From positions 1-35,060 of the forward strand of contig SKKO01000136.1 in the NCBI GenBank assembly GCA_007123715.1: DNA of 35,060 bases, in the 5' to 3' direction. Source of the stretch: Balneolaceae bacterium. GTDB taxonomy: Bacteria; Bacteroidota; Rhodothermia; Balneolales; Balneolaceae. Within the stretch, counting starts at the first letter, position 1. Each line of letters begins with the position of its first letter. The translations under genes and the position numbers were made by a program. The notes below the pieces were generated by a model. That model was given only the letters and a program-made list of their open reading frames with translations, ran no database searches and was not told where the DNA came from. Shown in pieces: positions 371 to 4,402 of this stretch.

Positions 371-1639
371 CTACATCTTATCAACACCCATATATGGCCG
401 GAGAACATCCGGCACCAATACATCTCCTGCTTCGGTCTGATATGTTTCCAGTATAGAGGCTACAATACGGGGAAGCGCCAGGCCTGAGCCATTAAGTGTA
501 TGCACCATCTCGGTTTTCCCTTTCTCATTTTTAAAACGAAGCTGCATCCTTCGTGCCTGGAACGAACCGAAATTGGAACAGGAGCTCACCTCCAGCCATC
601 GCTGCTGACCAGGGCTCCACACTTCAAGATCATATTTTTTGGTTTGCGTAAAACCCATATCACCTGTACACATCAACAGGGTGCGATAGGGAAGTTTTAA
701 ATTTTGCAGCAACGACTCAGCGTATTCACGCAGGCTTTCCAGCTCTGTATCCGATTGATCGGGGTGAACAAATTTCACCAGTTCAACCTTATCGAACTGG
801 TGCAGCCGGTTCAGCCCGCGCACCTCCTTGCCATAACTGCCGGCTTCCCTCCGCCAGCAGGGTGTATATGCCGTATAATAAATCGGCAAATCATCCATAG
901 AGAGAATTTCATCCCGGTGAAAATTGGTCACCGGTACTTCCGCAGTAGGAATTGCATAAAAACCGTCGCGCGGCACCGTGTACATCATGTCTTCTTTATC
1001 CGGTATTTGTCCGGTTCCGCGTGCCGAATCCTCGTTTACAAAATAAGGAGCCTGAATCTCCGTATAACCATGGGCAACAGCTTCATTCAAAAAAAAGTTT
1101 ATGAGTGCACGCTGCAACCGCGCCATAAGTCCAAGATAGAACGGGAAACCCGCCCCGGCAACTTTGGAACCCCGGTCAAAGTCAATCCATTTCTTTTCGG
1201 CAGCAATATCCCAATGGGGCAGTCTCCATTCATCCCCGCAAGGTTCACCCCACGACGAGTGAACCACATTATCTTCATCGCTGCGACCAACCGGAACGGA
1301 TGAATCCGGTACATTGGGAATCTGGTAGAGGAGATCTTCCCTCTCTTTTTGCAATATTGACAGTAACTCCTCGAGCTTTTTGATTCTCTCTTTACTGTTG
1401 CCCGTTTCACGGATCAGATCCTGAGCCTCCTCTTTTTTTCCCTGCCCCATCAACTGGCCGATCTGTTTCGCTTTTTTGTTACTCTCGGCGCGGGCCAGAT
1501 CCAGTTCGGTTACGGTATTGCGCCATTCTTCATCTTTATTCAGAACAAGTTCAACAGCCGAGGTATTCTTTTCCCCTTTGTTGGCCATCCCTTGCTTTAC
1601 AAGTTCGCGGTTGTCACGGATAAAATTGATGTCGAGCAT
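371..1639 (-). CDS. serS: Seryl-tRNA synthetase
   Basis: Cytoplasmic class II aminoacyl-tRNA synthetase that activates serine and charges tRNA-Ser (and tRNA-Sec where present). The 422-residue length is normal for the family. Residues about 30-103 form the antiparallel coiled-coil arm that contacts the long variable arm of the tRNA. Class II motif 2 lies at about 263-286, starting WRREAGSYGKE, and motif 3 at 384-398 (GSGLALPRIVASILE). The TAEVP segment at 232-236 belongs to the serine pocket. The ATG start fits the usual N-terminus (MLDINFIRDN). There is no clear Shine-Dalgarno sequence upstream. The gene stands alone, with a REP-like composite repeat beyond its 3' end and a repeat-rich 612-base gap beyond its 5' end. 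Identification is secure. Confidence 0.98.
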   Translation of the reverse strand: MLDINFIRDNRELVKQGMANKGEKNTSAVELVLNKDEEWRNTVTELDLARAESNKKAKQIGQLMGQGKKEEAQDLIRETGNSKERIKKLEELLSILQKEREDLLYQIPNVPDSSVPVGRSDEDNVVHSSWGEPCGDEWRLPHWDIAAEKKWIDFDRGSKVAGAGFPFYLGLMARLQRALINFFLNEAVAHGYTEIQAPYFVNEDSARGTGQIPDKEDMMYTVPRDGFYAIPTAEVPVTNFHRDEILSMDDLPIYYTAYTPCWRREAGSYGKEVRGLNRLHQFDKVELVKFVHPDQSDTELESLREYAESLLQNLKLPYRTLLMCTGDMGFTQTKKYDLEVWSPGQQRWLEVSSCSNFGSFQARRMQLRFKNEKGKTEMVHTLNGSGLALPRIVASILETYQTEAGDVLVPDVLRPYMGVDKM

Positions 1640-1814: not shown

Positions 1815-1885
1815 AATTGTTGTTACCCGGTTTCTCATATTTTCTGAAATCCTGGCTCGGGGTTTGTTTTGTGGAATCTTTCAAT

Positions 1886-1908
1886 CCGTCAGCTAAAGCA
1901 GACGGCAA
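1886..1908. repeat. REP-like palindrome, inverted copy of the one at 79-101
   Basis: These 23 bases are the exact reverse complement of 79-101, on the other side of serS. The unit is a palindrome with arms CCGTC/GACGG and GCT/AGC around a short AA centre and one T-T type mismatch. serS is thus bracketed by inverted copies about 1.8 kb apart. It lies in the 612-base gap between serS and the Lrp-family gene, which also holds the dispersed repeat at 1763-1814 and the hairpin cluster at 1944-2098. Confidence 0.7.
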
Positions 1909-1943
1909 TTGTAATTTATTTAGTTTGTCTTCCCTTCGACATT

Positions 1944-2098
1944 CACCGTATGGGCGGTGTTCCCCCGCTCCCACTTCAACGCTGACAGATCCAGTGGGTG
2001 CTGTTCTTATTGGGATCCTTCACGGGGCAGGTTTACACTCTGCCCTCCTGTCTGCCCCTAACATAGCTGGCGCAATTACAGGTTGTATCCCGCAACCT
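1944..2098. ncRNA. Candidate structured RNA: four tandem hairpins in a GC-rich island
   Basis: A GC-rich block inside an AT-rich intergenic region holds four consecutive perfect inverted repeats. They are CACCG/CGGTG (1944-1948 with 1955-1959), CCCACT/AGTGGG (1970-1975 with 1993-1998), GGGCAG/CTGCCC (2025-2030 with 2040-2045) and AGGTTG/CAACCT (2080-2085 with 2093-2098). The third 5' arm, GGGGCAG at 2024-2030, can alternatively pair with CTGCCCC at 2052-2058, a possible switch. The strand cannot be told from pairing alone. On the plus strand it would lie about 150 bases before the Lrp-family start, as a leader or separate transcript. On the minus strand it would be independent, or a remnant of a structured mobile RNA such as a group II intron; I see no diagnostic domain V. 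Short open frames across it (1817-2122 plus, 1756-1974 minus) have no protein-like character. Confidence 0.4.
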
Positions 2099-2251
2099 AC
2101 CACCCCTGGTCATGCCAATTAATACAATACAGAACCGTAAATTTTTTTATAAAATAATTGCAAAAATCTTACTATCACTCATTGTTTTCCTAACTAATTA
2201 AAGTTAATTTTTATTTGAATTAGAAATTTAAGGCTTTAGGAGTAATTTATA

Positions 2252-2728
2252 ATGCATCAACTGGACGAAACAGATATCAAAATTTTAAACCATTTACAGG
2301 AAAACGGGCGGGCCCAGCGTAATACTATCGCTGAGATTGTCCATCTTTCGGTACCATCCGTTTCTGAACGGATGAGAAAACTGGAAGAAAAGGGGCTTAT
2401 CGCAAATTACAATGCTATCCTTGATGCCAAAAAGTTTAATTTTGATATTACCGCATTCATTTTTGCAGAAGTAGACGGATCAGAAAGATATCCCACTTTT
2501 GTGAAACAGGTTACCAATCATCCTGAAGTACTTGAATGCCATTCCATAACAGGCGACGGTTCACATATACTCAAAGTCCGTACAAAAAATACCGAGTCAC
2601 TCGAAAAACTCCTTTCTCTGATACAAACCTGGGAAGGCGTTACCCGCACACGTTCGAATATTGTGCTTTCCACTTTTAAGGAAACACGTAAGCTTCCGAT
2701 CGAACAAATCGAAGAAATCAAAAAATAA
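2252..2728 (+). CDS. Lrp/AsnC-family transcriptional regulator
   Basis: DNA-binding regulator of the feast/famine family, typically sensing amino acids or related small ligands and binding DNA as dimers to octamers. The 158 residues have the usual order: a winged helix-turn-helix at about 5-52 (LDETDIKILNHLQENGR start, recognition part around SVPSVSERMRKLEEKG), a linker, then the RAM ligand-binding beta-alpha domain at about 68-142. The turn around GDGSHILKV (101-109) corresponds to the usual effector-binding region. A good Shine-Dalgarno AGGAG at 2238-2242 supports the ATG. It is one of only two plus-strand genes, and an unidentified membrane protein starts 10 bases after its stop, so the two are probably co-transcribed. 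Its ligand cannot be told. A second Lrp-family gene lies at 16289-16792. Confidence 0.93.
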   Translation: MHQLDETDIKILNHLQENGRAQRNTIAEIVHLSVPSVSERMRKLEEKGLIANYNAILDAKKFNFDITAFIFAEVDGSERYPTFVKQVTNHPEVLECHSITGDGSHILKVRTKNTESLEKLLSLIQTWEGVTRTRSNIVLSTFKETRKLPIEQIEEIKK

Positions 2729-4334: not shown

Positions 4335-4402
4335 GAAGGTTTTAGCCACCCACGCAGGGATCCCTTTTGGGAAAAGGCACGATGACATGAAGGTGCACGA
4401 GG
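4335..4402. repeat. Repeat-bearing intergenic region between convergent genes
   Basis: The 311 bases between the membrane protein (plus) and rpoN (minus) contain no convincing gene. At 4335-4402 the GAAGGTTTTAGCCAC ... AAGGTGCACGAGG arrangement repeats that of 1763-1814. Left of it, 4240-4290 is GC-rich and includes a CCCGGG palindrome; comparable GC-rich intergenic stretches accompany such repeats in Bacteroidetes. Two minus-strand open frames here (4064-4288 and 3954-4388) run antisense into the membrane protein gene and look spurious. I see no clear terminator for either convergent gene. Confidence 0.4.

Follow-up and report, generated by a model that had tools for sequence, protein, structure and literature searches.

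The closest described systems are the REP, BIME and REPIN elements that occur with a RAYT (TnpA_REP), as set out for E. coli and Pseudomonas in the relevant part of PMC8266576. In Bacteroidetes, the genes of TnpA_Y1 subclass 2.6 (RAYT group 5) are, according to the portion of PMC6006769 that deals with this subclass, flanked by 'atypical secondary structures' of which copies lie elsewhere in the genome. The CGTC-tagged REPs have also been reported from Bacteroidetes, and the section of PMC3733652 that treats them reports that no transposase was found in association with them.

The window analyzed here is the whole 35,060-nucleotide stretch of contig SKKO01000136.1 (Balneolaceae bacterium, GCA_007123715.1), whose genus can be assigned to Rhodohalobacter from a genome of the same genus (G018), whose transposase gene is identical to an R. 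halophilus gene. A GC-rich island (1944-2098) lies between its divergent serS and lrp genes, and we read this island, with a probability of about 0.82, as repeat debris whose core is a dead REP-like copy of a kind spread by a cognate RAYT. The features concerned are as follows.

371-1639, minus strand: serS, seryl-tRNA synthetase (gene annotation)
1731-2145, no strand, approximate: lineage-specific insert of ~400 bp that carries the island (alignment with orthologous gaps)
1861-1953, plus strand: dispersed repeat with a CCGTCAGCTAAAGCAGACGG palindrome, more than 30 own-genome copies, inverted partner at 76-102 (own-genome matches)
1960-2047, plus strand: composite of REP, insert and short flanks (repeat matches in own genome)
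1978-2033, plus strand: decayed, interrupted A-type REP-like copy, AACgCTGACAG / ATCCAGTGGGTG / CTGT...insert...CAG GTT (BLAST to own genome and relatives, intact consensus)
1978-1988, plus strand: REP left arm, AAC, bulged g, CTGACAG (alignment with intact copies)
2001-2004, plus strand: REP right arm, first part, CTGT (alignment with intact copies)
2005-2027, plus strand: 23-nt insert at CTGT^CAG, a diverged member of the second dispersed family, tCCCATNGGGATCCCTNCGGGG (family comparison)
2028-2033, plus strand: REP right arm, second part, CAG GTT (alignment with intact copies)
2182-2235, plus strand: lrp-upstream block common to all nine aligned gaps (gap alignment)
2252-2728, plus strand: Lrp/AsnC family regulator (gene annotation)

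The stretch from 1861 to 2250 has 42 matches in the own genome, with one repeat at ~1861-1953 and another at ~1960-2047. The core of the second (1977-2004) recurs by BLAST in 17 of 98 genomes, the own genome included, and belongs to a dispersed hairpin of the form RACgCTGWCAG-ATCCRGTNGGTG-CTGWCAGGTY, which in intact copies from relatives reads AAC-g-CTGACAG-ATCCRGTNGGTG-CTGTCAG-GTT. The hairpin comes in two types, an A-type with ATCCRGTNGGTG as its fixed 12-nt inner sequence and a B-type whose loop varies widely and often holds a second stem. When 30 genomes were searched with the pattern ACGCTGWCAG...CTGWCAGGT, copies were present in 15 of them, made up of 15 of the 19 same-genus genomes and none of the 11 others, and the reversed control pattern gave zero in all 30. 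The own genome has 12 copies by this pattern and 11 A-type places at three or fewer mismatches (control 0).

The window copy itself is both decayed and interrupted. Its hairpin is destroyed by the 23-nt insert: folded as single-stranded DNA the copy has z values of +1.05 (plus strand) and +0.16 (minus strand) and no longer forms a hairpin, and the intact hairpins range from -2.9 to -5.4. The composite matches G000:C313 at 92% over 86 bp and is present, with further change, twice in G000:C70. Since these three other own-genome copies carry the 23-nt unit at the same REP position, the composite was probably duplicated as such. The two composite REP copies on C70 (L109, 1976-2094 and 4284-4403) are in direct orientation ~2.3 kb apart, and one of them overlaps the end of an open frame that is degenerate and, read by eye, looks transposase-like.

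The REP-like stem shows clear compensatory changes across dispersed copies. These were scored at the two positions of the stem that the search pattern does not fix, using 88 distinct copies with distinctness judged by context only. Watson-Crick pairing holds at the inner position in 84 of the 88 (49 A-T, 34 T-A, 1 C-G; permutation mean 43, maximum 59). At the outer position it holds in 86 (52 A-T, 34 G-C; permutation mean 46, maximum 60). Copies commonly differ at both members of a pair, A-T against T-A or A-T against G-C. Thus the covariation that the preliminary description proposed to look for in homologues is strong, but it resides in the stem of the dispersed hairpin and not in the stems listed there. 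Likewise, its suggestion of a remnant of a structured mobile RNA holds in part, in that the island does contain the remnant of a mobile element with a covarying hairpin, the element being DNA (a REP) and not RNA. The stem is also irregular in the manner of group 2 REPs, with an internal loop and a bulged g following AAC/GAC in the predicted fold. Neighboring copies within 150 bp of each other are inverted in 17 of 20 pairs and form A/B heterodimers in 13 of the 20, and 77 of 81 copies lie outside long ORFs. GTAG within 12 nt outside the hairpin was found in no left and one right flank of 40 A-type copies, and again in no left and one right flank of 45 B-type copies.

A link between these hairpins and a transposase emerged from reading 12 loci, among which L099, L101 and L102 have a ~210-aa gene between hairpins and L106 has a degenerate version of it. 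The encoded protein contains the HUH motif NHFH and the motif YIHxNP, in which the catalytic Tyr sits in a YxxxNP arrangement. The NCBIfam model REP_Tyr_transpos (NF047646) gave 43-48 bits for the three proteins, short of its cut-off of 80, and Pfam matched only one of the three, at 16.6 bits against a cut-off of 23. A structure predicted from an alignment of 22 relatives (mean pLDDT 92.5) has as its best PDB match 4er8_A, a complex of E. coli TnpA_REP with a REP hairpin (E 2.2e-7, TM 0.57/0.72), and the protein, with its motifs and this modeled TnpA_REP fold, is a divergent REP-associated tyrosine transposase (RAYT). The RAYT family is present in 37 of 98 genomes, the own genome not among them, and its relatives extend across Bacteroidota and neighbors.

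Comparison of 30 RAYT loci revealed that the hairpins accompany only the close relatives. In six of the seven close loci (at least 59% identity), A-type hairpins lie at a distance of 22-363 bp from the gene, on one side or both, although four of the seven (L148-150, L165) are loci of discovery, leaving only three that are independent. The seventh (L151) has an interrupted B-type hairpin upstream, broken at CCTG^ACAG, as seen in L179, which is apparently the same contig. By contrast, none of the 23 distant RAYT loci has family hairpins, and none were found in the flanks of 30 PF01797 loci. An early rejection of a RAYT as the mover had relied on the absence of repeats at those 30 PF01797 loci and was overturned by the clusters with the divergent RAYT, a protein that PF01797 scores poorly or misses. 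Upstream of a distant, 40%-identical RAYT (L169), by ~50 bp, there is a different palindrome with a CTGACAG stem, AACCCTGACAGGCTTGCGAAGCCTGTCAGGGT, which is possibly a sister REP family.

The same comparison bears on whether some other enzyme, another Y1 or a DDE transposase, moves the repeats with the RAYT being a mere neighbor. Several copy-rich genomes do lack a strong cognate RAYT: seven of the 15 pattern-bearing genomes (G000, G001, G004, G007, G009, G016, G017) have no RAYT match of at least 185 bits, three of these (G000, which is the own genome, G001 and G004) have no match at all at E 1e-15, and G017 has 28 hairpin copies with only weak RAYT matches. Furthermore, an own-genome composite adjoins the degenerate, by-eye transposase-like frame described above. 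Copies without a RAYT could equally reflect incomplete draft assemblies or enzyme loss, and the presence of hairpins at close RAYTs, together with their absence from the 23 distant RAYTs and the 30 other Y1 loci, argues against a different mover, which we consider unlikely. When the own genome was searched permissively for a RAYT, the sole result was a distantly RAYT-like frame at C173, whose motifs differ. With copies remaining and no cognate RAYT detected, the family therefore looks orphaned in this genome. As a separate observation, the G017 locus L098 (G017:C186) has seven strict REP copies clustered in 9 kb, with no RAYT among the frames listed.

A second alternative is that the hairpin family acts as RNA, as a 3'-end stabilizer or terminator, and is conserved for a function in transcripts and not through RAYT mobility. 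Stem covariation suits RNA as well as DNA, and the copies do favor positions downstream of genes, and also convergent gaps (25 cases) over divergent ones (eight). Against this, A-type copies downstream of genes occur in both orientations relative to the neighboring gene (23 opposite, 14 same), the family is patchy between genomes, and the hairpins flank one RAYT clade specifically. An RNA role in place of mobility thus has a slightly smaller chance than a different mover, and the two roles do not exclude each other as REPs can do both.

We judge far less probable that the island is a structured leader or riboswitch-like RNA that regulates lrp (or serS) through alternative pairing, a leader of lrp being one of the readings in the preliminary description. 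Several of the observations behind this idea were reproduced. The island is upstream of lrp, its GC content is 0.57 over 1951-2100 with both flanks lower, GGGGCAG (2024) has a choice of two partners, CTGCCC at 2040 and at 2052, and a recount found the arms of all four short perfect stems in the sequence:

1944-1959: stem CACCG/CGGTG
~1971-1997: stem CCAC/GTGG, with a long loop
2026-2044: stem GGCAG/CTGCC
2081-2097: stem GGTTG/CAACC

What is poorly supported is that such a density of stems is hard to explain by chance, as it is only mildly unusual. Four stems with loops of 20 nt or fewer compare with a mean of 1.5 in dinucleotide shuffles, yet four are reached by nine of 500 shuffles and by 14 of the 226 tiles of 155 nt within the window; when loops are held to 9 nt or fewer only three stems count in the island, a number reached by 18 of 500 shuffles. 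Nor does the minimum free energy of the island set it apart from shuffles on either strand (plus strand z -0.51, 58 of 200 shuffles equally stable; minus strand z -1.11, 29 of 200). A search of the window against the Rfam covariance models gave no match at gathering score and only chance-level hits below the cut-off (E 2-4.5), and the island has no match in phage and plasmid collections. The meaningful structure is the imperfect palindrome split by the insert rather than the listed stems, of which the end hairpins at 1944-1959 and 2081-2097 are left unexplained by the REP-like family. Two ORFs run across the island and neither has a Pfam match, so a coding origin was dropped; the island is no fragment of a known protein-coding gene, a match to which was to count against a structured RNA.

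The orthologous gaps also speak against a leader RNA. Of 58 genomes, 55 have a match to lrp, the own genome among them, and we took 30 loci, of which 29 have a measurable serS-lrp gap, L136 being left out because it has no serS match. The window has the longest gap, at 612 bp; its closest relative, G020, follows with 467 bp, and the remaining 27 gaps are 174-332 bp long. In an alignment of nine of the 29 gaps, one block next to serS and one next to lrp are common to all nine, with the island outside both and missing from the orthologous gaps. At the same gap position G020 carries repeat debris of its own, which is different. As the island is confined to extra, lineage-specific sequence between the conserved blocks, it is not a conserved leader of lrp, and a false lead is thereby removed. 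The conserved block at 2182-2235, which separates the island from the gene, is likely to be the real lrp promoter or an operator/autoregulatory site. Finally, an integron attC remnant is hardly credible, since although the hairpin has AAC/GTT ends and one extrahelical, bulged base, it lacks the second core-site pair and the unpaired central spacer of attC sites, structural grounds on which this origin was dropped, and its copies are single or paired between genes and flank a RAYT rather than cassette genes.

The insert within the window copy belongs to a second and smaller family, tCCCATNGGGATCCCTNCGGGG, of 21-24 nt that is found in eight of 30 genomes, all of the same genus (control 0), with copies in L263-L319. 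We collapsed 63 copies to 45 by flank similarity, dropping those too near a locus end, and the flanks of these 45 distinct copies form a stem of at least 6 bases in 12 cases (permutation mean 1.75; 0 of 500 permutations reach 12). The hosts include several unrelated palindromes. On this basis we tentatively propose, at somewhat less than even odds, that tCCCATNGGGATCCCTNCGGGG is a separate mobile element of ~21-24 nt that favors the centers of palindromes or hairpins, including REP arms at CTGT^CAG. If true, few known mobile DNAs would be smaller, and the element would parasitize other hairpin repeats. The nesting of the family suggests hairpin tips as a possible target of very small DNAs. The small dispersed repeats of cyanobacteria, likened here by description only, resemble this family in size and in nesting inside other repeats.

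Other repeats are scattered through the same part of the window. Palindromic dispersed repeats of the CCGTCTGCTTTAGCTGACGG and GGGCTTTAGCCC types are located at 1861-1953, 76-102, 116-136 and 197-217, and the first of these types, CCGTCTGCTTTAGCTGACGG, has more than 30 own-genome copies. A further type, TTAGCCACTAAGACGCTAAGGC...AAAGGTGCACG, is present at ~1767-1806 and ~4340-4400, the latter copy looking as if interrupted by a GGGATCCC unit, and in relatives repeats of this type adjoin REPs or contain second-family inserts.

Spread by a RAYT in an ancestor is, in our analysis, the likeliest route by which the REP-like copy reached the serS-lrp site, by a mechanism reasoned from E. coli TnpA_REP. 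The mover would be a cognate RAYT, RAYTs being Y1 HUH transposases akin to those of IS200/IS605. It would recognize the ~33-nt hairpin in single-stranded DNA and spread it in the manner of a non-autonomous mini-transposon, in many cases with the two hairpin types joined in inverted orientation. Strand-specific binding of the single-stranded hairpin, followed by Tyr-mediated cleavage and transfer, would proceed as in E. coli TnpA_REP. RAYT-dependent spread in the ancestor would then have been followed by nesting and duplication at sites in the own genome, and most likely the window copy has no function where it now lies. With a REP family defined in both of its hairpin types, together with its compensatory changes and cognate RAYT clade, substrate recognition by Bacteroidota-type RAYTs, which have been little studied, can be tested directly. 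We came across no account of this hairpin family in the literature searched on Rhodohalobacter and Balneolaceae repeats and on Bacteroidetes RAYTs, and solely on that ground the REP family, which lacks a GTAG tag, is apparently undescribed.

Set beside the REP, BIME and REPIN elements, the family has the same short imperfect palindromes with stem irregularity and many intergenic copies, the same inverted pairs of two types and an HUH transposase gene flanked by hairpins, and the predicted fold of its RAYT is closest to that of E. coli TnpA_REP (4er8). It differs from them in having no GTAG/GTGG tag by the stem and in having one hairpin type with the fixed 12-nt inner ATCCRGTNGGTG, and its RAYT is divergent and scores below curated cut-offs. 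With the CGTC REPs as characterized in that section of PMC3733652 it shares inverted heterodimers, a mostly intergenic location and, in B-type hairpins, an end in CGTC on the other strand. However, GTC is here paired with GAC, as opposed to the unpaired CGTC tag; the 7-bp arms are at least 12 nt apart in nearly all copies, as opposed to an 8-9-bp stem with a 4-5-nt loop; and the present family flanks a RAYT. There is agreement too with subclass 2.6 as outlined in that portion of PMC6006769, which shares flanking structures with copies elsewhere, a Y motif of YIH-x-NP and relatives in Bacteroidota. The HUH-Tyr distance is ~87 residues here versus a stated median of 82, NHFH stands in place of NH[LIV]H, and in L148-L153 the WQ motif has I, V or F instead of its W (e.g. 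GTLIEG). By its motifs the hairpin/RAYT family departs from subclass 2.6 in an HUH residue and in the W motif, and it fits the account of genes flanked by structures with copies elsewhere in the genome.
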